The notes under the pieces are model-generated. The model was not told the DNA's origin. It saw only the letters and a list, made by a program, of their open reading frames with translations, and did not search any database. DNA of 46,964 nucleotides from Candidatus Nitrotoga sp. 1052 (GTDB taxonomy: Bacteria; Pseudomonadota; Gammaproteobacteria; Burkholderiales; Gallionellaceae). Shown here piece after piece: positions 3,713 through 41,046 of this stretch. Position 1 is the first letter of the stretch; each line of letters begins with the position of its first letter. The DNA lies in NCBI RefSeq assembly GCF_927312905.1, contig NZ_CAKMHQ010000023.1, forward strand, positions 1 through 46,964, read 5' to 3'. The position numbers and the translations under genes are program-made.

Positions 3713-5020
3713 TCAGTCCCAACCATACAGGATGTCTCTGTACGCCAGCACACGATGCTCCCACGAGTAGCACTCAATGGCCACGCGGTCAGCGCAAAAA
3801 GAATTCTGGAGCTTGCCGTTGCGCCAATCATTACGAAGAATACTGAGTACGTCGGCAATTGCATCTTCGGTGTTTTCAACCACTACCCCGGCCTTCACGG
3901 TCTGTATCAATTGCGCGCCCGGATCATCCCTCCCCGTCTTGATATGCAGCACAGGTTTTGCCGCACCAAGATACTCATATATCTTTCCCGGCAACTGATA
4001 GGCCTGCAGGTTCCCGATATTCAGCAGGACATCGGCTTGATGCTGCAATTCTACGCACGCGAAATGATCAATTTTTCCTATGAAGCGAACATTTGGGATG
4101 CCGTAGAATATCTTTTCAAACGCGGCGTTGTCACCGACAATCGTCAAGCTCACATCGCTCGCAGATAGACGCCTCATTGCTCTTGAAAAAATTTCCGGGC
4201 TGCGAAAGTCGGAATAAAAAGTACCGGTAAATACGATATTCATGCTGCCGGCCGGCAATACATCAACTGTTCGGCTCGCAGTCGCACTCTGCACGGAAAA
4301 TCCCTGCGGCACACAAATGAATTTTTGCGGGTCCGTAATGTGATGTCGACTTCGAAGCAGATCCTGCACATGCTCATTCGTCAAAACAACCCGATCAGCC
4401 TGTTTCAACGCATAGCCCTCGAAGGCGGAATCCGCCTTGCGGCGCCAGCGCGGCGTATACGGCGCGAGAATCGGATCAGCCAGATCAATAATCCATTTGG
4501 CGCCGGATTTTTTCCGGGCAAACAATCCAAGAAGAATATCCACCCCAGGTTCATGCGAACTGATCACTGCATCAAATTGATGCTGAGCGAGCAGGGCAGA
4601 CAACTTGCTGCGAGCGAATGGATACCACTCTGTACGCAGATCCGGAAATATCAACGCATTCAAAACGCGCCGCAACAAAATGGATATGCGCGATGTAAAT
4701 GAATTTCTCGATGAGGGCAGCAATGAAGTTTCAACCCGCGCCAACGGCTGCACGTCGGCAACTGCGGGAAGCGGTTTTGATTGCGTCAAGCGCCGCCGCT
4801 TCAGTTCTTGGGCAATCCCGGTAAAAGGCCCGGGCCAGACCCGATGCAAGACAATCTTGTCGTGCAGACCAACTGGGAAATCTGGCATTGCAGACATTTC
4901 CGGGCAAAGAACATGCAGCTCTATTCCCAATTCGGCAAGACCGTTCGCTATATAAAACCATCGAATGGACTGCGCCGCAATAATCGGAGGAAATTCGTAC
5001 GCAATTAACAGAACTTTCAA
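3713..5020 (-). CDS. Glycosyltransferase family 4
   Basis: A 435-aa GT-B protein. The N-terminus MKVLLIAYEFPPIIAAQSIR is the typical start of the GT4 acceptor domain (EFPP..GG-like). The C-terminal donor domain contains IVFTGTFYSDFRSP, SLTIVGDN, NVRFIGKIDH and GKIYEYLGAAKPVL, the last being the nucleotide-sugar binding stretch. Donor and acceptor cannot be told from sequence. Its start overlaps the wecB stop by four bases, so it is probably coupled to wecB; a ManNAc-type donor is possible but only by proximity. It has a central insertion at residues about 70-110 with low-complexity basic stretches, longer than in compact GT4 enzymes. Confidence 0.82.
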   Translation of the reverse strand: MKVLLIAYEFPPIIAAQSIRWFYIANGLAELGIELHVLCPEMSAMPDFPVGLHDKIVLHRVWPGPFTGIAQELKRRRLTQSKPLPAVADVQPLARVETSLLPSSRNSFTSRISILLRRVLNALIFPDLRTEWYPFARSKLSALLAQHQFDAVISSHEPGVDILLGLFARKKSGAKWIIDLADPILAPYTPRWRRKADSAFEGYALKQADRVVLTNEHVQDLLRSRHHITDPQKFICVPQGFSVQSATASRTVDVLPAGSMNIVFTGTFYSDFRSPEIFSRAMRRLSASDVSLTIVGDNAAFEKIFYGIPNVRFIGKIDHFACVELQHQADVLLNIGNLQAYQLPGKIYEYLGAAKPVLHIKTGRDDPGAQLIQTVKAGVVVENTEDAIADVLSILRNDWRNGKLQNSFCADRVAIECYSWEHRVLAYRDILYGWD

Positions 5021-7308: not shown

Positions 7309-8907
7309 TCAATTACCCTGAATGCGCTTAAAAACAAGCACACCAATCGATGGCATGTCCTTAAACAACACGAAACCTTTCCCGATCATTCTCTGCGACA
7401 AACACCGATTTAATGCTTCCATCTGCATTTGCCCGAGATAGCTTGTGGCACCGGACACCGAGGTTACCTGTCCATCAGAGGCAGCACCCGAAATCACCAA
7501 ATAATCTGCACTGTCCATATCAATAGGGTACATGGAAAGAGACCTCGACCTGTAAAGCACAGGCATCACCCCCTCAATGGCACTTACCCTTGAACCTTGT
7601 GGAATAAGCGCATCCAGAGATCTGAGTAAACCTGCCGCAAATCTCTCGTAAGAATGCTGCGGGTCAGCGTAATAACGAGAGATTGTTCCAAGAACACCGC
7701 TTTTAACGGAAGCAAGAAAACTCTTTTCGAATTTTCCCGTATAGGGATTGAGGTAACCAGCTACCAGAAGAACGTAGACACCAACTATAAGCGGCAAGGC
7801 AGCGTGCCAGATACCCGCATTAAAACGGTTAATCAGCCGCAGGTAACCAATCGATGCCACAAAGATAAGAAATGGCAAATACATCGCGTGATAATGCGTC
7901 GACCATCCGTTCAGTTCCGCACCGCCAACGGTAATCAGAAAACTTGGAATCATTACCGCAATTCCAAGGGCAAAATAGCGGAAGCCAGAAAATGGAGCAA
8001 AAATCCCCATGAAGAGCAGATTAACCAACATGAATGGCACCAACCCCGGGGCCTGCAGCCTCTGCAGGGGATCGTGCAAAATCACCATGGCGTTGTCGAG
8101 CAGCCCCCCACCTCCCTCAATACCTTCAAAAACAAACCTGAAATAAAAGAAAAGGTACGCTCCAAGAAGCATGAGAAGTGCCAGCATGGAATTCCTGATT
8201 TCGGTGGACTTTCGCACCTGTGGGAAAAAAAGCAGGAAAAATACGATCTCACCCATCATCATGATGGCGGCGCGTTCCGTGAACAAGGCAGCCACAATAG
8301 TCGATGCAACAAAACCTGCCAGTAGGCGCCTGACCGTCTCCTCCTCATCCCTGCAAACAATAGCGTGCATAAAATAAAGCGACAACAAGGCAAACGGCAT
8401 GTACAACCTGTCAAGGTAATAATCACCAACAGCCGAATAAGACCATGCCGGATAGAGCGCCACGCACAGCACAAAAGCCAGGCTGGGCAATCCCTGCCCC
8501 CCCTGCTTTCTTAAAAAAACAAAAGGTATGATAAGTAACAGAACATGTGCCAGCGCGTTCAAGAATGCAAACGTAAGTTCAGGGCCAGCGAATGCAGTAA
8601 GGAGCGAGATCGGATAAAGGGCGGTATAGGCATGGTTATCGAGGACGTTATATGCCAGCGGCTTCTTCATTTCTAAATCTGACTGACAAAGCGTTTCGAC
8701 GGGCACTTTCAATGTCTTCAGCGCATCGGGCCAAGAGGCTACCGTTCTGGATGTGGGTTGACCGCTCTCGAGAACGCTCAGGGAACTTTCAAACAGGAAA
8801 ACGGAATCTAGGTGTTTAAGCGCCGTGATGCGATAGAAAAAATTTGAAAAGACTACAACAAGAACCACGCACGTTGCCGCGACCACCCACTTCTCAATGC
8901 TTTTCAT
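7309..8907 (-). CDS. Polytopic membrane protein, GT-C/DUF2079-like (putative Gtr-type transferase)
   Basis: A 532-aa protein with about ten hydrophobic segments, starting with a membrane helix at residues 9-25, then a large periplasmic loop (about 30-105) and a C-terminal soluble domain (about 410-532). The loop contains LDNHAYTALYPISLL and the middle TERAA, which recall the DUF2079 family of GT-C-like proteins. It follows a GtrB-type transferase (14-base overlap) and a GtrA protein. In phage and O-antigen gtr operons that third position is held by the specific transferase that moves a sugar from undecaprenyl phosphate onto the chain in the periplasm. That role is inferred from order and topology; no catalytic residue was identified with certainty. 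Confidence 0.65.
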   Translation of the reverse strand: MKSIEKWVVAATCVVLVVVFSNFFYRITALKHLDSVFLFESSLSVLESGQPTSRTVASWPDALKTLKVPVETLCQSDLEMKKPLAYNVLDNHAYTALYPISLLTAFAGPELTFAFLNALAHVLLLIIPFVFLRKQGGQGLPSLAFVLCVALYPAWSYSAVGDYYLDRLYMPFALLSLYFMHAIVCRDEEETVRRLLAGFVASTIVAALFTERAAIMMMGEIVFFLLFFPQVRKSTEIRNSMLALLMLLGAYLFFYFRFVFEGIEGGGGLLDNAMVILHDPLQRLQAPGLVPFMLVNLLFMGIFAPFSGFRYFALGIAVMIPSFLITVGGAELNGWSTHYHAMYLPFLIFVASIGYLRLINRFNAGIWHAALPLIVGVYVLLVAGYLNPYTGKFEKSFLASVKSGVLGTISRYYADPQHSYERFAAGLLRSLDALIPQGSRVSAIEGVMPVLYRSRSLSMYPIDMDSADYLVISGAASDGQVTSVSGATSYLGQMQMEALNRCLSQRMIGKGFVLFKDMPSIGVLVFKRIQGN

Positions 8908-9922
8908 AACAATCTGTTCCTGAGCTTGTAGAAAATTGTGACGAACGCGAACCGCTCATCGGCAATTGCCGCTCAACAATGTACAAAGGCCTTTCTTTCA
9001 CGTCGTCGTAGATACGCCAGAGGTATTCTCCGATTATCCCGAGCATCATCATAATCAAACCGCCCACAATCAAAAGTGTAACCATGATGGGCGCCCAGCC
9101 GGCGAATGGCGTCTGACCCTGAAACCAAGCGCCTACAATCACCACTGCATATATCAAGCCTGCCGATGCTGTCAGGAAGCCCAGACTGGACATCAAGCGG
9201 ATAGGCAGATATGAAGAATCGAGAATCAGGTCGGTAAAATATTTAAACTTTTTCGCAAACGTCCACCCCGATTTGCCATGTGTTCTTCGCTCGCGTGCAT
9301 AGGGTATGAAAACAGTGGGCAGGCCAAGCCAAAGTACATCGCCCTGAAAAAAACGATGCCGGCCATTGAAAGAACGCAATAGCTTAGTTGCTCGATAACT
9401 CAGTAGCAAATAATCGAACCCACCTGCAGGGATGCGCGGATTCGCTCTCCGCGCAAAACCGTAAGCGATCCGAGAAAACAGGGTAGCGGCCACATCATCG
9501 TCCCTACTTTCCCGGTGAGCAATCACGATTTCCTGCCCCGTTTCCCACTGGGAAACCATCTGCACCATAACCCCGACAGGGTCCTGAAGATCAGCCGAAA
9601 TGGTAATGACAGCATCCCCTTGGGCAGCCTCATAACCCGCGAGAATTGCACTAACCTGTCCGAAATTCCTGGAAAGTTTAACCAGGCTTACATGATCCGG
9701 GTTTCCCGCCCGAACACGCTCCAACTCCTCCCACGAACCATCCTGAGACCCATCATCTACGAATACGATTTCAATATCCAGATGAGGGAAACTTTGCTCC
9801 CTGACTTGAAGAATCCGCAGACAGGTTTCGCTCACAGTCTCGCGGTTCTGGTAAACCGGAACGACAACTGAAACTCGCTTTCGCTGGCCTAAGGAAGTGA
9901 TACTAGAATTATTTTTATTCAT
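8894..9922 (-). CDS. gtrB: GtrB/DPM1-like polyprenyl-phosphate glycosyltransferase (GT2)
   Basis: A 342-aa inverting GT2 that transfers a sugar from a nucleotide donor to undecaprenyl phosphate on the cytoplasmic face. Seen: VSVVVPVYQNRETV, FVDDGSQDGS, the DXD-like SADLQDP, and two C-terminal membrane helices (FLTASAGLIYAVVIVGAWF and the IMVTLLIVGG segment) followed by GIIGEYLWRIYDDVKERPLY, the signature tail of GtrB proteins. The open frame extends to 10102, but the ATG at 9922 overlaps the upstream gtrA stop by four bases and gives the family length. It forms a three-gene set with gtrA and the membrane protein downstream. Confidence 0.88.
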   Translation of the reverse strand: MNKNNSSITSLGQRKRVSVVVPVYQNRETVSETCLRILQVREQSFPHLDIEIVFVDDGSQDGSWEELERVRAGNPDHVSLVKLSRNFGQVSAILAGYEAAQGDAVITISADLQDPVGVMVQMVSQWETGQEIVIAHRESRDDDVAATLFSRIAYGFARRANPRIPAGGFDYLLLSYRATKLLRSFNGRHRFFQGDVLWLGLPTVFIPYARERRTHGKSGWTFAKKFKYFTDLILDSSYLPIRLMSSLGFLTASAGLIYAVVIVGAWFQGQTPFAGWAPIMVTLLIVGGLIMMMLGIIGEYLWRIYDDVKERPLYIVERQLPMSGSRSSQFSTSSGTDCYEKH

Positions 9923-10311
9923 GCAGACCTGAAAGAAAAATGTCGGTGACCAAAATAGGAAAACACCGTCACGATTAGCACAGAAATGGCCTGAGCAACC
10001 ATCAGTCCCATCCCCAACTCCACAAAGAGAATCAACAACAACGCATTGCTCGCCATTCCAGAGAGATTCACAATAAAAAATCGCAAATATTCGTTCCACC
10101 ATGGAGCGGTCGAACGAAACACAACAAAGCGTTGACCAATGTAAGCATGTGTAAGAGAGAGCATAAAACTTATTCCAAGTATAACTAGGTAGTGAGTAGA
10201 TTCACCCAGAATATAATTTACTAGACCAAAAAGTAGATACCCTACGGCGGTGTTGTAAAGACCGATGAGCAGATACCGTACGGTACGGGCATTTATGTTT
10301 ACAAGTTTCAC
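9919..10311 (-). CDS. gtrA: GtrA family membrane protein (putative flippase of Und-P-sugar)
   Basis: A 130-aa protein with four membrane helices. RYLLIGLYNTAVGYLLFGLV, the middle GQRFVVFRS motif and the C-terminal FSYFGHRHFSFRS are typical of the GtrA/DPMS family, thought to translocate undecaprenyl-phosphate sugars. The start is a GTG at 10311 with AGGT upstream, five bases after the preceding acyltransferase gene. It overlaps gtrB by four bases, so the two are coupled. Confidence 0.85.
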   Translation of the reverse strand: MKLVNINARTVRYLLIGLYNTAVGYLLFGLVNYILGESTHYLVILGISFMLSLTHAYIGQRFVVFRSTAPWWNEYLRFFIVNLSGMASNALLLILFVELGMGLMVAQAISVLIVTVFSYFGHRHFSFRSA

Positions 10312-10315
10312 AATA

Positions 10316-10897
10316 TTACCTGCTGGATTGTTCCAGCTCCTGCCGAAATTGTCGCTCCAGCTCTAATAAATCTGTCTTGCGTTCCTTGGTCCGTCGCGCT
10401 GGGACGCCAGTATATATACCAAAAGGATTACAGTTTTGATTTACCAGCGTTAGTGCGCCAACAGCAACCCCTTCTCCAATCGTAATGCCCGGCAAAATTA
10501 CCGCACCGCTACCGACAATTGCATGTTTGCAAATCTTCACATCCGCGACCTGCATGTTGGTATAACGGGCAGGCACCATTGGATTTGTCATTGCTGCTCC
10601 CGAATAATCATCGTTGCTCGAGTAAATGCTGACACGTGAGGAGATATTAATAAAATCCTCCAGTATCACAGCACCGCCTCCAATAATCGAACTATACACG
10701 CCAATATGGATGTAATCCCCCAGCAAGACCCCGCCCTCACCAGCCGATAAAACACAAAAATCATCAATTCGCACATGATTGCCGATTGAAATATTATTGG
10801 CCCCATACACTGAAGCCTTGCGAGAAAGCAGAACGCCTTCCCCGACAGAGCGAAAACCTAAAGACTGTAATTCGTCTTCTAAATAGTAGGACATCAC
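10316..10897 (-). CDS. Left-handed beta-helix acyltransferase (VioB/WbbJ-like)
   Basis: A 193-aa hexapeptide-repeat protein. Repeats of the form isoleucine-G-hexad run from about residue 30 (NISIGNHVRI) through LLGDYIHIG, AVILEDFINI to IVGSGAVILPGITIGEGVAVGA, with a loop carrying NPMVPARYTN and the C-terminal GVPARR, as in sugar O/N-acetyltransferases. Its start overlaps the aminotransferase stop by four bases. Given that pairing, it most likely acetylates the amino group of the 4-amino-4,6-dideoxyhexose made by the preceding enzyme. The acyl group is not determined by sequence. Confidence 0.8.
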   Translation of the reverse strand: MMSYYLEDELQSLGFRSVGEGVLLSRKASVYGANNISIGNHVRIDDFCVLSAGEGGVLLGDYIHIGVYSSIIGGGAVILEDFINISSRVSIYSSNDDYSGAAMTNPMVPARYTNMQVADVKICKHAIVGSGAVILPGITIGEGVAVGALTLVNQNCNPFGIYTGVPARRTKERKTDLLELERQFRQELEQSSR

Positions 10898-12003
10898 CTT
10901 CCGCCCCGTATGATGTCCAGAATCCTATCCTGATCGGATAAAGAAAGATCAGGGTAGATAGGCAGGCACAAAATGTGTTCTGAAATACACTTTGCAACGG
11001 GCAGTCTGCCTGGTGCAGCCGACGGCAGACCGCGATACATCGGCATCTCACTGATCAACGGGTAGAAATAGCGGCGAGACAGAATCCCCTGATCTTTCAA
11101 TAACTGGTAAAGAGCATCCCTTGACATCGGATAAGCATCATCCACGAGAATCGGAAAATACGAGTAGTTCTGCGTACTGTCAGTGACTGACTTGAAAACC
11201 GATATACCAGCAATATCGGCCAGTCCATTCCGGTATCGCTCATCAACGTGCTGCCTTGCGCTGATCGCCGAATCGATATATCGAAGCTGAAGCAAGCCAA
11301 AGGCGGCCTGCACCTCATTCATCTTGCCGTTGATTCCGGGGGCAACCACAGTCACCTCGTCAGCAAAACCAAAATTCTTCAGATAATCAATCCGCTGTTT
11401 TGTCTTCGCATCAGGGCAGACGATGGCCCCTCCCTCAAAGGTATTGAAGACCTTGGTTGCATGAAAACTCAGAACAGACAAATCGCCATGCTTGAGCAGC
11501 GATTCTCCCTTGTAGCGAATTCCAAAAGCGTGTGCTGCATCGTAAATGACCCGCAACCCATAGGCATCTGCAATTTTCTGAATTCGCTCCACCTCGCACG
11601 GATTCCCATAACAGTGCACAGGCATGATCGCAGTGGTCAAGGTGGTGATCGCCGACTCGATTTTTTCCGGGTCGAGGTTGAACGAAACCGGATCAATATC
11701 CACAAAAACAGGCTTGATGTTGTTCCACAAAAGAGAATGCGCGGTCGCTACAAATGAATAAGGCGTGGTAATCACCTCACCAGTGATACGTAGTGACTGC
11801 AATGCAGTAACAAGGGCAATCGTACCGTTTGTAAATAGTGATAAATGCTCAACACCAAGATACTCAGCAAGTTCGCGTTCAAGCTGCTGATGGAATGGGC
11901 CTGCGTTGGTCAGCCACTTCGACTCCCATATCTCGGAAAGGTAGGGAATAAACTCCTCCAGCGGCGGCATAAATGGTTGAGTTACATATATATTTTTTTT
12001 CAT
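10894..12003 (-). CDS. DegT/DnrJ/EryC1 sugar aminotransferase (VioA-like)
   Basis: A 369-aa PLP enzyme that aminates a keto-sugar nucleotide, giving a 4-amino-4,6-dideoxy sugar. The N-terminus VTQPFMPPLEEF and WESKWLTNAGP follow the VioA-type (dTDP-4-amino-4,6-dideoxyglucose) subgroup. The PLP-binding lysine is K184 in SFHATKVFNTFEGG, and D155 in IYDAAHAFG should bind the pyridine nitrogen. The start ATG has GAGGG upstream. The upstream enzymes RmlA and RmlB that would make its dTDP-4-keto-6-deoxyglucose substrate are absent from the window and may be elsewhere. Confidence 0.85.
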   Translation of the reverse strand: MKKNIYVTQPFMPPLEEFIPYLSEIWESKWLTNAGPFHQQLERELAEYLGVEHLSLFTNGTIALVTALQSLRITGEVITTPYSFVATAHSLLWNNIKPVFVDIDPVSFNLDPEKIESAITTLTTAIMPVHCYGNPCEVERIQKIADAYGLRVIYDAAHAFGIRYKGESLLKHGDLSVLSFHATKVFNTFEGGAIVCPDAKTKQRIDYLKNFGFADEVTVVAPGINGKMNEVQAAFGLLQLRYIDSAISARQHVDERYRNGLADIAGISVFKSVTDSTQNYSYFPILVDDAYPMSRDALYQLLKDQGILSRRYFYPLISEMPMYRGLPSAAPGRLPVAKCISEHILCLPIYPDLSLSDQDRILDIIRGGR

Positions 12004-12027: not shown

Positions 12028-13629
12028 TTAACCGTGAAGGCTTTCCATTGCTAAAACTGTAGCCAGTTGTCTTCCAATCCTGTCAGCATTCGCCATGATT
12101 GTAAGCGTATGCGATTTCTCTGTAAGCGTTGGCAAGCAAGCTCCATCAACAACAAAAATCCCGTCAAGTCCCTCAACCTCACCACGCTGCGATGTCTCCC
12201 CGATAAACGGTGACTCTCGCATCGGAAGCGTCCCTGCATAATGAATGTCGCCCCCAGGGGGGCCGATCGTAAAGCTGCCTGGCAGTAACACGGCACCCAT
12301 ACTCCAATATGCCTTGCGTAGCTTCTTGGCGGCCTCGTCCATAAGTGGCACGACGGCATTGCAATATTTACCCGTCACGCTCAGGGAATCATCCGGCTGT
12401 AATTCGGCCTCTGCGGCAGTCAAATGGCCCGGCAAGAAGACATTCCCAACCACACAGGAACTCAATAGCTCCCGTAGTAGATCAATGCCATACCGCCGCC
12501 GAAGTGGTACGTGCCGCACGAACTCAGATAACGGAATACCTGTCGTTGCAAAGGTAGAGCCAAAAGCGGTGATGGTGTCTTGGAGATTCAGGGAAAAAGA
12601 CAATTGACCCAACCCGAACCCAGGCATCCTCGGAGCGCCCAATAGTCGCGGCAGCCAAAGCATGAACGCAGCAGTCGGGCATGATAGCAATGGAACGGGG
12701 TGCCTGTGATTCAATGTTTTCAACACTATTCGGGTAGTAGCCAGTGTGCCGGCAGCCAGAACGATCCTGCTTGCAGTAATTGATCTTCGCTCACCATCCG
12801 AAGATGTTTGGCCCTCCACAGCCCAATAGCCGTCGTAGCGGGTCAATCCATCCACCACAAAGCCAGAAAGTTCACTAAAGTTCTCATGCTTGCGAAGACT
12901 CGGCAGATCGCCTGTTGAGGAATACATCGAGTGCCGCCGACATCCCCATAAACAGTTCCCCGAGAGATTGCAGGCCTGACGACTAGCGGTATCTTCACTT
13001 AGTACAGCAACTCTCGACCGCCCCAGCCTGAATCCTTGCGCATGAAGTTTTTTCCTGTGGTTCAAATAACGCTGAGACAAGCGCGTATGCAGCGCATCCA
13101 TCGGTATCGGTGGTTGCGAGTAATCATCCAGCCCAAAGTAGTCTGACATGTCATCATCAACTCTTCCGCTGATGCCGATTCGTTGGCTGACCTTTGCGTA
13201 GGAAACATCCAGGTCAGATGCGGGAAATGGAAACGCAGCGATTTCTCTAGCCGAGAAACGAGCCACTCCGCATCCCCAGGCATTCGACAGGCCGCCTGTT
13301 GCCAACGAGCCGACCGTGATGAAATTTTTTCCTACGACATGGTTGCGTGCCTCGAACTCTTCAAAGGCATAGGCATGCGAAGGCACCCGCAGCTTCGGCG
13401 AAACAGCATCACGCTTCTTCAGCGCATGGGAATCCCCACCGACCATCCACTTCCATTGCTCGGTGTCGTTGATGCGTGCTGAAAGAAAATCCGCTTCTGG
13501 CGGCAGCACGCCAGGCTGTTTGCCTCCATCCACAATCAAAACGCGAAGGCCAGCATTCACCAGTGGAAAGGCCGCTGACACCCCAGAGGGGCCACTGCCG
13601 ACGATGATGATGTCGAAATCGGGGGTCAC
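12028..13629 (-). CDS. GMC-family FAD oxidoreductase
   Basis: A 533-aa flavoprotein. The N-terminal FAD dinucleotide motif VGSGPSGVSAAFPLVNAG is followed by the ribose-binding acidic end VDGG; the C-terminus has DIHYAGTLPM and KSHTLTIMANADRIG, the GMC substrate region with its histidine. GMC enzymes oxidise alcohols. Here the neighbours (SDR, GtrA, polyprenyl-P transferase, methyltransferase) suggest a sugar or lipid-linked sugar as substrate. The GTG at 13629 overlaps the SDR stop as GTGA with AAGGGAG upstream, so it is preferred to the longer frame (to 13710). It retains a cysteine-rich stretch (CNLSGNCLWGC) seen in some GMC relatives. Specific activity unknown. Confidence 0.8.
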   Translation of the reverse strand: MTPDFDIIIVGSGPSGVSAAFPLVNAGLRVLIVDGGKQPGVLPPEADFLSARINDTEQWKWMVGGDSHALKKRDAVSPKLRVPSHAYAFEEFEARNHVVGKNFITVGSLATGGLSNAWGCGVARFSAREIAAFPFPASDLDVSYAKVSQRIGISGRVDDDMSDYFGLDDYSQPPIPMDALHTRLSQRYLNHRKKLHAQGFRLGRSRVAVLSEDTASRQACNLSGNCLWGCRRHSMYSSTGDLPSLRKHENFSELSGFVVDGLTRYDGYWAVEGQTSSDGERRSITASRIVLAAGTLATTRIVLKTLNHRHPVPLLSCPTAAFMLWLPRLLGAPRMPGFGLGQLSFSLNLQDTITAFGSTFATTGIPLSEFVRHVPLRRRYGIDLLRELLSSCVVGNVFLPGHLTAAEAELQPDDSLSVTGKYCNAVVPLMDEAAKKLRKAYWSMGAVLLPGSFTIGPPGGDIHYAGTLPMRESPFIGETSQRGEVEGLDGIFVVDGACLPTLTEKSHTLTIMANADRIGRQLATVLAMESLHG

Positions 13630-14909
13630 AAAGCTCCCTTCGCACGCCCCAAGGCAAGGCGGACTAGCGGGAAAAAGATCACCCGTAACATTCGCCAGAA
13701 TACCTCGCATGCCACCGCGCTCGTCATCGAAAACAAACTACTTAGCACCCCGTGTTCATGGCCAAGGCCGAGAAAGCGATAAGCCCCAGTTGGAGTTGCC
13801 TCAGCCAGCATGGTCGCGGTATCCAGCCGCCAAGAAAATTCTGCCGATGCCGTTTTGCTAGCCCATACGGACTTGTCAAGCAACGACAAGAAAATGGGAT
13901 AACCCAGAAAAAACCTGGGCAGACCCAATGCCTGCCCACCGCGCAACTGCTCTATTGCACAAATGTAGCGGCGCAAGACAGCACTGCCCGGTGGTTCTTT
14001 CAATACATAAATAAGCAGTGCCCGCCCCTCCCGCAGCAAACATCTTCTTCGATCATTACCTGATGGATGCATCCCGGAATGTAGTGGGCGCAGCGTAAGT
14101 CCAAGCCGCTTGAGGTCAGATGCAGTCTCCATGACAGGCAAGTCGAAAAGTGAACGCAAGCGTTCCAGCCCTAGCCGAGTTCGCAATGCCTCGCCCAGGA
14201 CAGCAGCAAGTGCATTGATAATCACGACTGGCACAGGCACAAATCCTCGCCAGCAACGAAGCCGTGATTTGGCAATCCCATCAAGAAATTTTGAGAATGA
14301 GATAGGTTCAGGTGCGGCAAGGCAATATACGCCGGGAGGAACATCACCCCGTTCGGCAATTCGCAGCAGACCCTCTGCGAGATCATCTACGTGAATCGGT
14401 TGAACCTTGGGGGTCGGCACAAACGCAGGGAGTATCGATAATTGCTGGACAGTCTTGACCAGCATCCCAAACAGTCCGCGTAACTCCCCACCATAGACCT
14501 GCCCTGGCCGAACCACCCAACCACCAGCAGACAACACCTCCTGTTCAATATGCCATTTTGTTCGTCCATAGGCGGTCGGTGCATCAGCCCGCGCTGTTTG
14601 GCTGGATACAAAAATAAATTTTGCACCCACTTCCCGGGAAGACTTAATTAACCTTTGTGCGGCAACTAGCTCGCACTCATTTTTCAAACGATTGGTGTAT
14701 GTTGTATTGGCCGCAAGATGCACAACGGCATTTGTATTTATGGGAAACACGATCGAATTGTCTGATGACAAATCAAAAGGAAGCCATGATGCCGGAAAAG
14801 TTGATGGTCTTTGACGAGACGCTATTACAACGTCATGGCCGCGCCTCGATGCAAGACAAGTCAGACACGATCCAATGTAGCCCGTGGCACCGGTCACCAC
14901 CACCCTCAT
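13626..14909 (-). CDS. NAD(P)-dependent epimerase/dehydratase (SDR) with C-terminal extension
   Basis: A 427-aa protein. Residues 1-290 form an extended/atypical SDR: VVVTGATGYIGS for the cofactor, AVVHLAA, FVSSQTA, and the catalytic YxxxK in AYGRTKWHIEQ. The C-terminal 130 residues do not belong to the SDR fold and I do not recognise them; they are hydrophobic near the end (FFPLVRLALG). It overlaps both neighbours by four bases. With the FAD oxidoreductase downstream it could form an oxidise-then-reduce epimerase pair. The long open frame upstream of 14909 lies inside the previous gene and was not used. Confidence 0.8.
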   Translation of the reverse strand: MRVVVTGATGYIGSCLTCLASRRGHDVVIASRQRPSTFPASWLPFDLSSDNSIVFPINTNAVVHLAANTTYTNRLKNECELVAAQRLIKSSREVGAKFIFVSSQTARADAPTAYGRTKWHIEQEVLSAGGWVVRPGQVYGGELRGLFGMLVKTVQQLSILPAFVPTPKVQPIHVDDLAEGLLRIAERGDVPPGVYCLAAPEPISFSKFLDGIAKSRLRCWRGFVPVPVVIINALAAVLGEALRTRLGLERLRSLFDLPVMETASDLKRLGLTLRPLHSGMHPSGNDRRRCLLREGRALLIYVLKEPPGSAVLRRYICAIEQLRGGQALGLPRFFLGYPIFLSLLDKSVWASKTASAEFSWRLDTATMLAEATPTGAYRFLGLGHEHGVLSSLFSMTSAVACEVFWRMLRVIFFPLVRLALGRAKGAL

Positions 14910-15319
14910 ACACCGACTCCAGTGGAATTTTTCCTCTCTGGGTGTTTCTGCTGCCCAGTGAAAATAAAGTGCTTGCTTAAAGCATAAGTCAAAGCAACGC
15001 AAATAATATCAGCAATAAATTTCGCAGCAACTGGCTCGGCAATCCATACAAGCAGCAGTGCGAGAATCGCTGAAGCCGCAGGAATATTTAGCGCCAACAA
15101 TACAAAATATCGAATAGCCTGAGGTCTTATGGCAGAGCTTTCCGCAACACGAAAAGTAAAATTTCTATGGACAATGAAAGCAAAAATCCCTGCGGCAAGT
15201 TTAGCCAAAACATTTGCCATAATCGGCCCAGACAATCCTGATTTTAAAACGATCAGAAATAGCCCCATATCTATGCCATAGGCCAGCAGTTGAATGGCGA
15301 CATACCGCACGAAAGTCAT
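14906..15319 (-). CDS. GtrA family membrane protein
   Basis: A 137-aa protein with four helices and the family motifs VRYVAIQLLAYGIDMGLFL, IVHRNFTFRV and ALSKHFIFTG. It probably moves a polyprenyl-phosphate sugar across the membrane. This is the second GtrA of the operon, with little identity to the one at 9919, and it sits in a block with its own DPM1-like transferase (16107). The start ATG overlaps the methyltransferase stop (ATGA). Confidence 0.85.
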   Translation of the reverse strand: MTFVRYVAIQLLAYGIDMGLFLIVLKSGLSGPIMANVLAKLAAGIFAFIVHRNFTFRVAESSAIRPQAIRYFVLLALNIPAASAILALLLVWIAEPVAAKFIADIICVALTYALSKHFIFTGQQKHPERKNSTGVGV

Positions 15320-16110
15320 GCAACTACCTTACGAATAACAATGATGTGGTGCAGCGCGATCCATCTATTGAGCGGAGAAATCAACTTTTCCAACAACCCT
15401 ACAAACCCAGTGAATGAATCCGGCAGAAGCTGCCGGAAGTTCAACCCCCCAGAGAGCAGGTATTTCAAATAATTCCCAGCTAGTTCATTGTGCACGATTC
15501 TGAGTGACGGATGTTTTCGCTCATACTCATTTCGATCGCGAATAAACACGATGTAACTAAGTGCCTGATTTGCGCCATTCATTGGGCCTGACACCGGCGT
15601 TTCCCAAGACTGATAGGTTTTATCAAAACCCTCCGTGCGAAACAGTCGTTTGAACAGGAATGTTGCAAGCGGCCCATAGTAGGGTTCAAGTAAAATGGCG
15701 CCGCCACCGGGAATTAGCACTCGATCCAGTTCACGCAAGAATTCATCTGGGTGAGGGAAGTGGTGAAAGCAATTCTGTCCATACATTACTCTGACCGAGC
15801 TGTCCGCGAGATCCATTGCTTCCGCATTGATTACCCGATCCAAGTGGGGAGCGTAAACAATATCGGTAGCCAACACTTCGGGATAAGAATCCCGCATCGG
15901 CGAAACACCAGAACCCAGCTCAACCTTGATACCATCGCCAGACAAGAACTGACGATCTAGCTTCCTGAACAAATGATGAAACTCGGTGAACACCTCTCGC
16001 AACATGCGCTTTTTCTCAAGCATTTTGCGGTGCAGTGCCAAGCGATTCTCCCCGTCGACATCCATGCCGACGAGAAGCGGGTCGCACAGAAAATCAAGCA
16101 GTCGCCTCAT
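15316..16110 (-). CDS. SAM-dependent methyltransferase, type 11
   Basis: A 264-aa class I methyltransferase. Motif I is VELGSGVSPM, followed by LATDIV, and the later motif VLIPGGGAILLEPYYGP is the usual post-strand-4 signature. The substrate is not visible; the context suggests a sugar or polyprenyl-linked sugar. Both ends overlap neighbouring genes by four bases, so it belongs to the coupled GT2/MT/GtrA/SDR/GMC block. Confidence 0.8.
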   Translation of the reverse strand: MRRLLDFLCDPLLVGMDVDGENRLALHRKMLEKKRMLREVFTEFHHLFRKLDRQFLSGDGIKVELGSGVSPMRDSYPEVLATDIVYAPHLDRVINAEAMDLADSSVRVMYGQNCFHHFPHPDEFLRELDRVLIPGGGAILLEPYYGPLATFLFKRLFRTEGFDKTYQSWETPVSGPMNGANQALSYIVFIRDRNEYERKHPSLRIVHNELAGNYLKYLLSGGLNFRQLLPDSFTGFVGLLEKLISPLNRWIALHHIIVIRKVVA

Positions 16111-17132
16111 GTTCTTCCCCCCTTAACCGGAATACGCCGCATACCAAGTCCCCTATGCCTCGGCCTGCGTGGCACCGATGCAATGTCATAACCCAGAAAC
16201 GCCAGCACAAATTGCGTTCCCATAAGAATGGGTAGTGCAGCCAGCATGACAGTGCCTGCTGGTGTAGCAGCCCCTTCACGCGCCGACTCAAGCCAGTGAT
16301 ACCCACCAAAGCTAGTGCCTGCTACTAGCAGCACCAAGCCCAAAGGCAGCTCTATCGACGCCATGGATAGATCGCGTAAATAGTAGTTATAAAAAATTCG
16401 CTTCATGAAATTCAGTACATGCTTGACGAAGAATTCACCCATGATTTTTGAAATTTTAAGATTGCTTTCTTCATCGCCATATTTGGCGTTCATGGGCACA
16501 TCAATGACCACCGCGCGCAATATATTAAGCCGGAACAAAATGTCGGTTTCAAAGAAATAGCGCTGACTGATTTTCGAAAAGGGCAAATGCCTGGCAACGT
16601 CGGCATGAATGGCCGTATAGCCATTGGTGGGGTCAAACAAATCCCAGTAGCCGGATGAAAGCTTCGTCATGAATGACAATACTGCATTGCCGAACAGGCG
16701 CACTTTGGGCATGGCTCGAATTTCATCGAGATCGAAAAAGCGGTTACCCTTGGTGTAATCGGCCTCTCCAGCCAAGATTGGCTCGATGAAGTTGGGGATA
16801 AGGCTTGTGTCCATCTGCCCATCCCCGTCTACTTTGACAATCACCACTGCACCGTCGGCAATAGCTGCACGATAACCCGTCATCACAGCACCGCCCACGC
16901 CTTGGTTGCTTTCGTGATAAACAACCCGAACACGCTGATCCAAACAATGCGCTTCAACGTATTCCCCAGAGCCATCCGGGCAAGCATCATCAACAACGTA
17001 TATCCGCCACACCTCATCCCCGATGCTGGAGATCACTTCCATAACGTGCCGTGTGACTCTGTAGCAAGGAATAACGACAGCGATGTAACTGTCGGCTTGA
17101 TTCTTCTCTTGGCTTGATGTCGTAATATTCAT
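16107..17132 (-). CDS. DPM1-like GT2 glycosyltransferase with two C-terminal membrane helices
   Basis: A 341-aa inverting transferase: IAVVIPCYRVTRHV, VDDACPDGS, NQGVGGAVMTGY and the DXD-type KVDGDGQMD, then DPTNGYTAIH. Two hydrophobic helices follow at about 262-282 and 292-318. This organisation fits transfer of a sugar from a nucleotide donor onto polyprenyl phosphate. It starts four bases inside the end of the 826-aa membrane protein gene. The GtrA protein two genes on is its natural flippase partner. Confidence 0.85.
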   Translation of the reverse strand: MNITTSSQEKNQADSYIAVVIPCYRVTRHVMEVISSIGDEVWRIYVVDDACPDGSGEYVEAHCLDQRVRVVYHESNQGVGGAVMTGYRAAIADGAVVIVKVDGDGQMDTSLIPNFIEPILAGEADYTKGNRFFDLDEIRAMPKVRLFGNAVLSFMTKLSSGYWDLFDPTNGYTAIHADVARHLPFSKISQRYFFETDILFRLNILRAVVIDVPMNAKYGDEESNLKISKIMGEFFVKHVLNFMKRIFYNYYLRDLSMASIELPLGLVLLVAGTSFGGYHWLESAREGAATPAGTVMLAALPILMGTQFVLAFLGYDIASVPRRPRHRGLGMRRIPVKGGRT

Positions 17133-19609
17133 TGTCGCAATGAGTTGCCTTTAAATTCTAAAGGTATTGATGTATGCCCGGTAGTATAAACCACAGCATT
17201 AGCGGCATTTGGCGGTGCCGTCACTTCCATTGCATGTTCAACCCAAGCTGAGGAACACTCGAAGGTCTGAATGTCAGTGCTGACAAACTGCCCATTGGCA
17301 TCAAGCCAGTTAATCTGAATACGGCCCAATGTCGGCTCTTTAGCGCAACGAGCGATAACGGTATTCAGATAACGTCGGCCAGAAGAAACCGCGACTGCTT
17401 GAGTCGCAGAGGAAGCAACATTTGTCAAAACAACGCCTGTAGCAGCATCATATTTTGCCTCAGGAGCCAAAGCCCAACCCTTGATTGATGTGAAATCCGG
17501 ATTGCCAAGCAACTCAGTTTTAAAACTATAATCAATTTTGACTTTTCGAATACTAAGGAAGCCATACTCCGCCAGCTTTTCAGTTACTTTTTCGATAAGA
17601 GCCCGTGTTTCCGGCCCCCTCACTCCACCTACACCATTCCAGTTCGAATCCAGAATGATAAAATTGACGCCCCGCTTCAGTAAAATATTAGTGACATCCT
17701 GCTCTGCATGGATTGAGGCAATTTCTCCCTGAAACATATAATTGTACCAATTTGGATAAAGCGCATCTGCTGCTAAACCTGCGGTCATGGGAGCAGAAAA
17801 AACAGCCACAGGTTTTCGTCCGATGTTAAGGTGATTGACTAATTCAACGGCATTTCTGATGGGCAAACGATCCAGCAAATACCTATCCCTGGCGGATGAA
17901 TGAAGAATCGGTTTGAGCGCAAAATCTCGGTAAAACGCACCTGCATTTAAAAACAGAAGATTTAAAGCCACGGCAGTCACGACCGCAGCATACCACCCAT
18001 TTCTTATGAACGATCTCGTCGAAAATGCGGCACTTAGCGCCACACCCATGGCTGCCACCAAGATTGCCCATGAGGGAAAAACATATCTTAAATAGCTCTG
18101 CGAATGGAACACCGCTGCAACAGCAAATGTTCCAACCAAAAGCAACGCGACGCCCCTAACCTGCCTAAGTGCAATCAATGTGACCGAAGCAGGAATAAAT
18201 AATAATAACCACTGAAAGCCCGAAGCTCCAGCATAAGCTTCAAGGTATTTCCCTGATTCGAATGTCACACGATAAAGAACATCCCACGTAATGCCTGCAC
18301 TAAATAATGGGTTATCAAAATTTGAGGCAGAGGGGTAATAAGGTGATTGGAATATCTTGTTAAACAGCGGAAAAACGGGGTTCCCCGTCAACCGCCAAGC
18401 TGTCGCATAAGGGATGATGCCAATCGCCAGAAAAAGACTTAGGCCAAGCACCAACAACAGCAAGCCAGCATTTTTGTACCACGACCTGTATCGCCAAACC
18501 AGCAGCAACAGCAACACGGGCAGTATTGTGAAGGTCACTGCTTTTGCAGCCAGCGCGCACCCTAGAAGCAACCCAGCAACGGGCAACTCAACTTTGGGAT
18601 TACCCGAAGCTGTAGAAACTCTAAGAACAAGCAATGTACCTGCAACAACAAACGATGCCCAAACCGATTCAATAAATAGGCTGCTACCCTCAGTAAAGGT
18701 CAGTGGTGTCGATAAGAAAACAAGAACTGCCCACCTTGCACCAATAGCCGAGCCACCTGCCCACAATACAAGACCTCGTACCAGCCAGCCGAGAATGAAG
18801 ATAAAGCCCACATTGATTAGTCGTGCCGCCGTTTCGCCAGCCAGCATGTAGCCAACAGAAAAAATCCAGTCCCCGAGCATAGGCATCACTGCCCATACAT
18901 AGGTGCTTGCATCGAAACCCCATTGATGACGCAGTGCCAGGTGCGCAGAAACAAACAGGTGCATCGCCAAAGCGTCGAATCCGACTTCCGGCATCAAGGC
19001 AACAACGAAATAAACCAATGCGACAACCGCAATCGCAACATCAAGCCCATCAACATTGAACCCGGCATGGCTCCTTTGCGCCACCAGAGCCAAAAGGTTT
19101 TTAACTTGTTCTACAACCACACGCCAACCTAGTATTAGGGGCAATGAAAGAGCCACACCATATACGCCTGGATAGTTCACAGGAAAATGGGCAAGTAGCC
19201 CGACCGCCGCGCCATAAGTGCCTGCCCCAACTAGAAAACTAACCAACCAGTTATCTTCCTCGGTTCTTATACTGAGTAGTGCAAGAATATATCTCCCAAA
19301 AATGGCGGAGGCAGCAGCAAACCATAGCATTACCAGCAAAGGCCACAGCGCGCCAGCCAGGATTGCGAAACCCACAGCAACAGCAGCCCCTACGAGCAGC
19401 GCGCTCTTTCTGCTCCACCAGGAGCCGGCAAAAACCAATACCGCACAAACAAACAAAAACCCAACATAGCGTAATAACGCACCCTTATCAGACCACGGCA
19501 AATCCTGTGGCCAGTGCAGATGCGCAAGCCCCCAAATGGTTAGCAATGCGCCAACAAGCAAAGAAAACAATATAAGTGTTGCAGTTAAATTTTTCAAAGT
19601 AATATACAC
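17129..19609 (-). CDS. Large GT-C-like membrane protein with C-terminal soluble domain
   Basis: An 826-aa protein. Residues about 10-560 hold some 12-14 membrane helices, with the first periplasmic loop carrying MPEVGFDALAMHLFVSAHLA, the acidic loop pattern of GT-C transferases. The remaining C-terminal 270 residues are soluble; the last 120 (LGNPDFTSIKGW onward) look like a beta-sandwich of the carbohydrate-binding type. A role as periplasmic glycosyltransferase using a polyprenyl-phosphate sugar is likely but inferred. The start here is a GTG inside the end of the preceding gene with AAGGG directly before it, a poor spacing, so the true start may be a few codons downstream. Confidence 0.7.
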   Translation of the reverse strand: MYITLKNLTATLILFSLLVGALLTIWGLAHLHWPQDLPWSDKGALLRYVGFLFVCAVLVFAGSWWSRKSALLVGAAVAVGFAILAGALWPLLVMLWFAAASAIFGRYILALLSIRTEEDNWLVSFLVGAGTYGAAVGLLAHFPVNYPGVYGVALSLPLILGWRVVVEQVKNLLALVAQRSHAGFNVDGLDVAIAVVALVYFVVALMPEVGFDALAMHLFVSAHLALRHQWGFDASTYVWAVMPMLGDWIFSVGYMLAGETAARLINVGFIFILGWLVRGLVLWAGGSAIGARWAVLVFLSTPLTFTEGSSLFIESVWASFVVAGTLLVLRVSTASGNPKVELPVAGLLLGCALAAKAVTFTILPVLLLLLVWRYRSWYKNAGLLLLVLGLSLFLAIGIIPYATAWRLTGNPVFPLFNKIFQSPYYPSASNFDNPLFSAGITWDVLYRVTFESGKYLEAYAGASGFQWLLLFIPASVTLIALRQVRGVALLLVGTFAVAAVFHSQSYLRYVFPSWAILVAAMGVALSAAFSTRSFIRNGWYAAVVTAVALNLLFLNAGAFYRDFALKPILHSSARDRYLLDRLPIRNAVELVNHLNIGRKPVAVFSAPMTAGLAADALYPNWYNYMFQGEIASIHAEQDVTNILLKRGVNFIILDSNWNGVGGVRGPETRALIEKVTEKLAEYGFLSIRKVKIDYSFKTELLGNPDFTSIKGWALAPEAKYDAATGVVLTNVASSATQAVAVSSGRRYLNTVIARCAKEPTLGRIQINWLDANGQFVSTDIQTFECSSAWVEHAMEVTAPPNAANAVVYTTGHTSIPLEFKGNSLRQ

Positions 19610-38169: not shown

Positions 38170-39285
38170 TCACTGCGCAAAACGTTGCGCCAATGCCACA
38201 CGCTTCAGATACGCATCGCGCGCAATTTGTACATCCTCAAGGAAGTGCGGCAATTCTTTCAGCAATAATGCCTGTGGCCCATCCACCAGAGCCTTTAAGG
38301 GAACTGGATGAAAATCCACCAGCACCATGTTGGCGCCGGCCATCACCCCCTGCGCGGTGATATGCATCAAATCGAGAATGCCATCTGGCGCGGCACTGCG
38401 CGTGCCAACGGAATGCGATGGGTCAATGCATACTGGCATCCGGGTCAGACGCTTGACCACCGGCACATGCGCAAAGTCCACCAAGTTGCGGTGCGGATCG
38501 CCCATGTTGGTCTTCATACCACGCAAGCCAAACACCACATTGCGATTGCCTTCAGATGCCAGATATTCGGCGGCGTTGAGTGATTCATCCAGCGTGATGC
38601 CAAAGCCGCGTTTAAGCAGCACCGGGAATTCCTGCTGGCGCCCAACGATTTTCAGCAGCTCGAAATTCTGTGTATTACGTGTACCAATCTGTAACATCAC
38701 GCCAGTGGGGTTGCCGGTCTGCTGCAATGCTGCGCGGATTTCGTTGAGATGCGACTCATGCGTAATTTCCATCGCAATCACCTTTATGCCGTATTTCCCC
38801 GCCAAGTCGAAAACAAACGGCAAACAATTCTTGCCATGCCCCTGGAAAGCATAGGGGCTGGTGCGCGGCTTGTACGCGCCCATACGCGTGCAAACCTGGC
38901 CATTATCGCGCAATGCTTTTAACATGATTTCAACATGTTCGGCGTTGTCCACCGCACAAAGTCCGGCAAACACGTTGAGCGTGTCCTGGCCAAAGCGCAC
39001 GCCGTTATAGTCGAAATGCGTTGGACGCGGGTCATCTTTATGCTGCCCAAGGATACGATATTCCTCCGACACGCGCACCACACGCTCGACACAGGGCAAG
39101 CTTTGCATGTCCTTGATGTCTAGCGGCTTAGTGTTGCCGATGAGGTAAATCTCAGTTAATACCTGCTCAGTACCGCGCTCAACATGCACGCGTATCTGAA
39201 CACCCATCAACCCGGTGAGATACGCAATCAGCTGCTGATAGTCTCCGCTCTGCTGGTTGGTATTGGAAGCAAGAATCAATATCAT
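38170..39285 (-). CDS. 3-deoxy-7-phosphoheptulonate synthase (type I-beta-like)
   Basis: First enzyme of the shikimate pathway, condensing PEP and erythrose 4-phosphate. The 371-aa protein has an N-terminal ferredoxin-like domain (about 1-75; MILILASNTNQQSGDYQQLI) as in type I-beta enzymes, and a TIM-barrel with MGAYKPRTSPYAFQG, LQIGTRNTQNFELLK, VLLKRGFGITLDE, and the metal site VCIDPSHSVGTRS. Active-site cysteine of some family members is replaced in AGLCAVDN-type context here but PEP-binding K and R are present. Start ATG has AGGAG upstream. Neighbouring BtuF-like gene may be coupled. Confidence 0.88.
   Translation of the reverse strand: MILILASNTNQQSGDYQQLIAYLTGLMGVQIRVHVERGTEQVLTEIYLIGNTKPLDIKDMQSLPCVERVVRVSEEYRILGQHKDDPRPTHFDYNGVRFGQDTLNVFAGLCAVDNAEHVEIMLKALRDNGQVCTRMGAYKPRTSPYAFQGHGKNCLPFVFDLAGKYGIKVIAMEITHESHLNEIRAALQQTGNPTGVMLQIGTRNTQNFELLKIVGRQQEFPVLLKRGFGITLDESLNAAEYLASEGNRNVVFGLRGMKTNMGDPHRNLVDFAHVPVVKRLTRMPVCIDPSHSVGTRSAAPDGILDLMHITAQGVMAGANMVLVDFHPVPLKALVDGPQALLLKELPHFLEDVQIARDAYLKRVALAQRFAQ

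Positions 39286-39409: not shown

Positions 39410-41046
<1,637 letters not shown>

Follow-up and report, generated by a model that had tools for sequence, protein, structure and literature searches.

A candidate GMC dehydrogenase-SDR pair for epimerisation of polyprenyl-phosphate sugars in a putative three-component glycosylation cluster of Candidatus Nitrotoga

The window, by which we mean the whole 46,964-nucleotide stretch of Candidatus Nitrotoga sp. 1052 DNA analysed here, carries six consecutive genes on the minus strand. They encode, in order, a GT-C-type membrane glycosyltransferase (17129..19609, 826 aa), a GT2 enzyme designated GT2a (16107..17132, 341 aa), a SAM methyltransferase (MT; 15316..16110, 264 aa), a GtrA-family flippase candidate (14906..15319, 137 aa), an SDR (13626..14909, 427 aa), and a GMC flavoenzyme (12028..13629, 533 aa) that begins with GTG. 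Each of the five joints is a 4-base overlap, four with ATGA and one with GTGA, and both the coordinates and the joint sequences agree with the coupled gene row, GT-C gene included, of the original prediction. The mechanical list of open reading frames places the starts of the SDR and GMC genes further upstream, at 15002 and 13710; with the starts chosen here, the overlaps return and the nucleotide-binding motifs fall at the protein N-termini. The overlaps by themselves are unremarkable, because four other joints of the window on that list, some with non-ATG starts, also overlap by 4 bases (5017-5020, 10894-10897, 38170-38173, and 40048-40051). In the related locus L027, all five joints overlap alike and the six proteins are 54-76% identical to those of the window; it is this conservation of the joints, not the overlaps per se, that is beyond chance.

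GT2a passes the Pfam cut-off for PF00535, matches AglJ (59.6 bits) and PpgS (48.7 bits) below the NCBIfam cut-offs, and has dolichol-phosphate mannose synthase (PDB 5mlz) as its only solved relative below 1e-8. These matches support the predicted DPM1-like polyprenyl-phosphate sugar synthase and correspond to the DPM1/GtrB-type GT2 of three-component glycosylation. The GT-C protein matches PMT weakly (19.9 bits, below the 22.7 cut-off) and gave no match in the PDB; it is presumed to be the periplasmic transferase of the lipid-linked sugar. GtrA scores 57.6 bits against PF04138 (cut-off 26.1), as expected for the GtrA-family component of a three-component system, and the MT passes the Pfam cut-off for PF08241.

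The GMC protein lies narrowly above the PF05199 cut-off (25.9 versus 24.6 bits), and the FAD motif, the GMC C-terminal domain, the catalytic histidine, and the fold (predicted structure with a pLDDT of 94.6) place it among the GMC oxidoreductases. By both profile and fold, FAD-dependent glucose and fructose dehydrogenases (FAD-GDH and FDH) are nearest, followed by glycoside oxidases. The alignment comprises 48 rows (the window, both L052 copies, and 45 further loci with one GMC each), omitting the broken or fragmentary L042, L051, L067, L070, L077, L078, and L079 and the near-copies L059, L062, L068, L075, and L076. His463 is kept in every row, whereas His507 is kept in only 30. The motif Cys220-x5-Cys226-x3-Cys230, which corresponds in sequence to the cluster ligands of the FAD-GDH/FDH complex, is present in 47 rows and matches the [3Fe-4S] ligands 212/218/222 of BcGDH given in the part of PMC6719666 used here. 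Because its nearest relatives are FAD-glucose/fructose dehydrogenases with the same cysteine spacing, the enzyme probably acts as a dehydrogenase with a [3Fe-4S] cluster and less probably as an oxidase; the predicted family stands. Inspection by eye revealed no signal peptide in GMC or SDR, both of which open with the nucleotide-binding motif. A search of the Pelagibacter family for further members without the cysteines gave 1 of 197, the one already known.

The catalytic domain of the SDR (14058..14909; PF01370, above the Pfam cut-off) is of the extended/atypical type, and its fold matches GalE/NDUFA9-type SDRs. Ser102, Tyr114, and Lys118 are kept in all 41 aligned rows, out of 50 possible; L046, L048, and L058 (no fused C-terminal domain), L054 (cut), and the five near-copies named above were omitted. 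The C-terminal domain (13626..14057, residues ~285-427), predicted to be unrecognised, indeed has no Pfam match at E ≤ 1 over its 143 aa, and the SDR fold search, with SDR entries among its best 50 matches, gave the extra domain no structural assignment. It is helical and has a hydrophobic basic C-terminus. Because L046 and L048 encode it as a separate gene immediately upstream of GMC, the domain is likely to be a partner of the GMC enzyme, and it is probably also a membrane-surface anchor. A sequence relationship to the hitchhiker subunit of FAD-GDH was rejected (hhalign probability 0.1, from sequence profiles only, against 26 of the 34 PF13618 loci fetched). A strict tie of the domain to the Fe-S motif was also dropped: the GMC of L145 is without the motif, yet this locus may carry the domain on a gene of its own, with marginal likeness (7.6 bits against a shuffle maximum of 5.3; hhalign probability 3.4%). 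L058 has neither motif nor domain.

From scattered bacteria, 58 relatives were gathered solely through similarity to GMC. In 45 of them the SDR gene immediately precedes GMC, and in 4 more it is present elsewhere in the cluster; the remaining 9 comprise 4 loci cut by contig ends, 2 fragments, and 3 distant outgroups. The predicted pairing is thus nearly fixed, and the two frames overlap in 39 of the 45 loci under the chosen starts. Of ten gene pairs compared, SDR and GMC co-diverge most closely (r 0.88 across 25 loci, uncorrected for common ancestry). The GMC gene is rare, being found in 6 of 398 genomes of the phylum, the window's own included (1e-40); of the other five, three carry the SDR next to GMC, L147 lacks it, and in L146 a contig end truncates the upstream side.

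The pair is usually accompanied by one of two types of polyprenyl-phosphate-sugar-synthase-like GT2. Clade A consists of the window and 24 relatives (SH-aLRT 100), or 26 loci counting the broken L042. Of the 25 that were searched for a GT2a homolog, 18 have one no more than 8 kb away (both strands considered), 3 have it on the same contig at a distance of 10-19 kb, 2 have it on a different contig, and 2 gave none. A GT-C homolog accompanies GMC at up to 8 kb in 15 of the 26, window included. Where upstream sequence is available, in 25 clade-A loci, the gene directly upstream of the SDR encodes GtrA in 15 cases and a small protein of EamA/SMR-like type in 4 (L024, L025, L034, and L045; one passes the Pfam cut-off). 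In the 18 clade-A relatives with a flippase-like gene in that slot, this gene overlaps the SDR start or stops no more than 9 bases from it. An MT relative occurs in 20 of the 58 loci, and an acyltransferase occupies the MT slot in L031, L040, and L045 and also in the L022 cluster. Judging from these gene contents, GtrA is exchangeable for an SMR-type protein and methylation is optional, two corrections to the original prediction, whose flippase slot holds.

In the outer clades, the GT2s of L066, L073, and L074 match AglJ and dolichyl-P hexose transferase best, below cut-offs, and those of L057 and Rhizobium were assigned to this type through similarity to these three. Four TM segments are predicted wherever they were counted (L057, L066, L073, L074, and L148). 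Rhizobium does not supply the GMC-SDR pairs without a GT2 that would have counted against the original prediction, since the synthase lies just beyond the 8 kb flank: with longer flanks, an AglJ-type GT2 appears ~8 kb upstream in all 7 full-length loci, one with an internal stop codon. Six other loci still have no AglJ-type GT2 at 1e-40 (L052, L054, L055, L056, L058, and L065; three on short contigs), and L052 and L058, the two of them searched with GT2a, gave no match. The rearranged cluster L145 retains GT2, GMC, SDR, and MT at 23-42% identity, with a GtrA-like protein below cut-off.

On the basis of the gene order, the families, the conserved catalytic and cysteine motifs, and the linkage, we lean towards reading the block as a cassette in which a polyprenyl-phosphate sugar is built, edited, and exported, with one hydroxyl inverted through oxidation and re-reduction. 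At the inner leaflet, GT2a would load undecaprenyl phosphate with a sugar taken from a nucleotide donor. Anchored to the membrane through the SDR C-terminal domain, the GMC enzyme would oxidise a single secondary hydroxyl, at C2, C3, or C4, to a ketone, with electrons passing from FAD to the [3Fe-4S] cluster and then probably to quinone. The SDR would use NAD(P)H to reduce the ketone from the other face, yielding the epimer. The methyltransferase, or an acyltransferase in some relatives, would decorate the sugar, GtrA or an SMR-type protein would flip the lipid-linked product, and the GT-C enzyme would join it to a surface glycan. The two-step epimerisation originally proposed is partly supported: the GT2, the flippase slot, the SDR-GMC pair, and the independence from DprE1/DprE2 strengthen it, with the corrections that the GMC looks like a dehydrogenase, that the C-terminal domain is probably its partner, that methylation is optional, and that GtrA is exchangeable. 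We give even chances to the broader proposal of a second, independently assembled polyprenyl-phosphate sugar epimerase, composed of an Fe-S GMC dehydrogenase, an extended SDR, and a new membrane adaptor domain, and serving three-component glycosylation in several phyla, where it would be combined with two or more non-orthologous lipid-sugar synthases and with flippases of two families.

GMC and SDR could instead work on the sugar while it is still free or nucleotide-linked, with GT2a then loading the finished product onto the lipid carrier. The SDR fold resembles that of NDP-sugar epimerases such as GalE, and the Rhizobium pair adjoins HddA-, GmhB-, and HddC-like genes (below the NCBIfam equivalog cut-offs), as for an NDP-heptose-like donor. 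However, NDP-sugar epimerases of the GalE-type fold work alone with NAD and need no flavoenzyme, and the flippase-like gene abutting the SDR start and the hydrophobic basic C-terminus also argue against this order of events, which we consider unlikely. It is less probable still that the keto sugar is the end product or feeds another reaction, with an unrelated SDR step and no epimer. Both activities are inferred, and the distant GMC homologs of L069, L071, and L072, and likewise L147, have no such SDR in their 8 kb flanks, but the overlapping SDR-GMC order in most loci, the top-ranking co-divergence, and a domain fused to SDR in most loci and placed beside GMC in L046 and L048 speak against this reading. 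A route in which the ketone passes to the neighbouring DegT aminotransferase (12003-10894), so that the second three-component set (Hex, GtrA, GT2b, GT-C) would receive an amino sugar, is very improbable: the DegT start lies 24 bases past GMC in the window, and a GMC also has a DegT neighbour in L055 and L147, as does the second GMC of L022, but the other clade-A relatives have no DegT-like gene beside the SDR-paired GMC, and the SDR adjoins GMC in all of them except L023 (contig end).

Among the open-licence papers listed for GMC enzymes together with GtrA, O-antigen, lipopolysaccharide, or undecaprenyl, and among those listed for lipid-sugar epimerases, none dealt with this combination. The main known examples of sugar epimerisation at the lipid stage are the DprE1/E2 route and an SDR of Citrobacter (PMC11127046). 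New here is the kinship of the GMC protein to FAD-glucose/fructose dehydrogenases with the [3Fe-4S] cysteine spacing kept. If the proposed epimerisation is true, a non-homologous pair with Fe-S electron transfer would mean that lipid-stage epimerisation evolved more than once. It could also account for unusual side-chain sugars of Gram-negative surface glycans, provide an enzyme tool for rare-sugar synthesis, and give an assignment to two unnamed families, the GMC clade and the SDR C-terminal domain.

Catalytic subunits of FAD glucose and fructose dehydrogenases (6a2u/8grj and 7w2j) share with GMC the fold, the C-x5-C-x3-C [3Fe-4S] motif, and a sugar-oxidising family, at 14-17% identity in the fold search. 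GMC differs in being cytoplasmic as judged from its N-terminus; PF13618, the small hitchhiker subunit of the FAD-GDH/FDH complex, has 0 matches in the window's own genome, and the SDR C-terminal domain is unrelated to it by profile. Glycoside 3-oxidase and pyranose 2-oxidase GMC enzymes (7qf8, 7dve, and 8qve), which oxidise ring hydroxyls of glycosides and are catabolic, are the next best fold matches, at 17-18% identity.

DprE1 is a VAO/ALO-type flavoenzyme with FAD_binding_4 and ALO domains, and DprE2 is a classical short SDR. The cassette, in contrast, has a GMC-type flavoenzyme with the [3Fe-4S] motif and without those domains, an extended PF01370 SDR of 427 aa with an extra domain, and a DPM1-type GT2 in place of the PRPP-using transferase of the mycobacterial route. 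PF04030 (ALO) was not found in the window's own genome, and a C. glutamicum control was positive. Because both enzymes come from other families, the pair would work like DprE1/DprE2 without being a member, which bears out the predicted independence from DprE1. As described in the part of PMC11127046 cited here, mycobacterial DprE1/DprE2, the decaprenylphosphoryl-ribose 2'-epimerase, oxidises and re-reduces its substrate in a pathway that also includes a polyprenyl-P-sugar synthase and the small flippase-like Rv3789; the cassette has in common the flavoenzyme with an SDR, the synthase, the small flippase-like protein, and, as proposed, the oxidise/re-reduce logic. The same part of PMC11127046 deals with three-component glycosylation (GtrA/GtrB/Gtr) and pentofuranose systems with ORF13 or DprE1/E2, in which the synthase uses PRPP and no GMC enzyme is mentioned in that part, whereas the cassette has a DPM1-type synthase, a GMC, and a methyl- or acyltransferase. 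Common to both are the lipid-sugar synthase, the flippase, a GT-C enzyme (putative in the cassette), and the auxiliary epimerase expected at the Und-P stage (PMC11127046, same part).

The six genes of the block (GT-C, GT2a, methyltransferase (MT), GtrA, SDR and GMC) and their five 4-base overlaps, as described in the original prediction, were re-derived from the window sequence. Because four other joints in the ORF list of the window have overlaps of the same kind, these are ordinary for this genome, and the value of the block is its conserved gene order rather than the overlaps. The GtrA, MT, SDR and, narrowly, GMC proteins pass Pfam cut-offs, which the GT-C protein does not reach. GT2a matches the polyprenyl-phosphate-sugar enzymes AglJ and PpgS, both below cut-offs; among solved structures, only a dolichol-phosphate mannose synthase matches it below 1e-8.

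Among 58 loci of relatives (L numbers) collected by GMC similarity alone, 45 have a same-strand SDR directly upstream of GMC, and the two frames overlap in 39 under the chosen start codons. The SDR is elsewhere in the cluster in four further loci: downstream of an MT (L046, L048), with the first of two GMC copies (L052), or convergent with GMC (L053). The nine loci without a nearby SDR are located at contig edges (L023, L055, L067, L078), contain GMC fragments (L070, L079), or are distant members with 22% identity (L069, L071, L072). Co-divergence of GMC and SDR was the highest of ten pairs tested (r 0.88 for 25 loci, uncorrected for common ancestry). In a second, neighbourhood-blind sample, the GMC family occurred in 6 of 398 phylum genomes, the source genome included. 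The SDR adjoins GMC in three of the five other carriers (L143, L144, L145; L144 and L062 are the same genome), L147 has no SDR beside GMC, and L146 begins at a contig end. Interrupted reading frames of GMC (L042, L051, L077) and GT2 (L154) may represent pseudogenes or assembly errors.

A quick GMC tree, calculated without bootstrap, supported a clade (clade A) of the window and 24 relatives from Gamma-, Beta- and Alphaproteobacteria, a Desulfobulbia and a Nitrospinota bin; the counts below use 26 loci, including the broken L042. For the co-occurrence with GT2 and GtrA partners that the original prediction proposed to check, this clade has a local GT2a homolog in 18/26 loci (on the other strand in L037, L041 and L044) and GtrA in the slot upstream of the SDR in 15 of the 25 loci with upstream sequence. 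In L035 and L043, no GT2a homolog was found in a search that covered all clade-A loci but L023. The homolog lies 10 kb (L022) and 14 kb (L038) upstream, or 19 kb off on the other strand (L039), on contigs judged the same from their equal length, and on another contig in L025 and L042. A small EamA/SMR-like membrane protein occupies the slot in L034 (the only one passing a Pfam cut-off), L045 (below it), L024 (resembling that of L034 by eye) and L025 (an 88-aa ORF assigned by eye). Six loci have neither type there (L022, L035, L037, L040, L042, L043), and the L022 cluster and L040 carry GtrA further away. In place of the MT, a hexapeptide acyltransferase is encoded in L031, L040, L045 and the L022 cluster. 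The strongest indication of function, in our view, is that parts of the same role replace one another within one slot.

In L040 (5044-6682), the interval between GtrA and the SDR contains genes for a GNAT acetyltransferase and a PIG-L deacetylase, a hint that the sugar of this variant may be N-acetylated. In Polynucleobacter L038 (9612-14744), GMC is followed downstream by an ORF that looks ACP-like by eye, a gene for a FabG-like SDR and one resembling ketosynthase III; ORFs of similar size occur in Polynucleobacter L045 (9601-14660). This would fit the addition of an acyl group to the same glycan.

The source genome comprises 3.23 Mb in 99 contigs. The SDR has a high-identity match (67%) in only one of 148 other genomes (G089, a same-family relative), the remaining matches being at most 33% identical; the cassette is therefore accessory. 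Directly after the GMC block, on the minus strand (7309-12003), is a second three-component-like set consisting of a DegT aminotransferase, a hexapeptide acyltransferase, GtrA, a PgfS/ArnC-like GT2 and a 532-aa protein (GTCb), whose relatives are encoded by nine ORFs across the window and the fetched loci.

In a fold search with the GMC model (pLDDT 94.6), FAD-GDH and fructose dehydrogenase come first and glycoside and pyranose oxidases next; a profile search gives the same leading matches. The C220-x5-C226-x3-C230 motif is present in 47/48 GMC rows and aligns with Cys212/218/222 of BcGDH, given as 3Fe-4S ligands in PMC6719666; it is missing in L058 and L145. H463 is invariant, and H507 occurs in 30/48 rows. 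We infer that GMC is a dehydrogenase handing electrons to a membrane acceptor; the acceptor itself is a guess.

The SDR has a GalE/NDUFA9-type fold by fold search, and the catalytic S102, Y114 and K118 do not vary across the 41 rows. Its C-terminal domain, noted as unrecognised in the original prediction, has no Pfam match and is helical. In L046 and L048, it is a stand-alone gene directly upstream of GMC and the SDR lacks it; it was not found in L058, whose GMC also lacks the Cys motif. In the stretch from residue 385 to the C-terminus, basic residues are more numerous than acidic ones in 40/41 rows, and the best 19-residue hydropathy mean of this stretch reaches 1.6 in 16/41 (1.59 in the SDR of the window). 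We infer an adaptor linking GMC, SDR and membrane.

In the outer clades, a different GT2 is nearby in Sphingomonas (L057, L066), an Acetobacteraceae bin (L073) and a Hyphomicrobiales bin (L074). Those of L066, L073 and L074 score best with AglJ and dolichyl-P hexose transferase, below cut-offs; that of L057, on the other strand, was grouped with them by similarity. An AglJ-type GT2 lies ~8 kb upstream of GMC in all seven full-length Rhizobium loci (six located from coordinates adjoining the fetched flank, the seventh in L148), with an internal stop in the L075 copy. It adjoins a many-TM protein weakly similar to the window GT-C (48.5 bits) and nucleotide-heptose-like genes below equivalog cut-offs. 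The gene string shared by Rhizobium species (L060 3-9518, L148) runs AglJ-like GT2, many-TM protein, LPG_synthase_TM protein, SDR, nucleotidyltransferase-HAD-kinase fusion, HddA-like kinase, SDR and GMC, and is perhaps a lipid-linked heptose-like pathway. GT2a homologs are elsewhere in the genomes of L047 (54% identical), L050 (50%), L046 (38%) and L048 (39%), and the AglJ-type GT2 search found none for L052, L054, L055, L056, L058 and L065. In the Pelagibacter bin L058 (9593-13423), a 1277-aa protein with PRK kinase, class II aldolase and ribulose-phosphate 3-epimerase domains adjoins the SDR-GMC pair lacking Cys motif and C-terminal domain. The distant L145 cluster contains, in a different order, GT2, a 137-aa gene, GMC, a short SDR, an MT (42% identical) and a GtrA-like protein below cut-off, which suggests that a set of functions is conserved, beyond a mere string of DNA.

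By domain content, neither GMC nor SDR belongs to the DprE families, in agreement with the predicted non-DprE1 flavoenzyme. According to PMC11127046, DprE1/DprE2 act on decaprenyl-P-ribose, and the Citrobacter SDR ORF13 is assigned the same job on Und-P-ribofuranose. In our proposal, the window pair would do the same job as DprE1/DprE2, epimerising a polyprenyl-P sugar.
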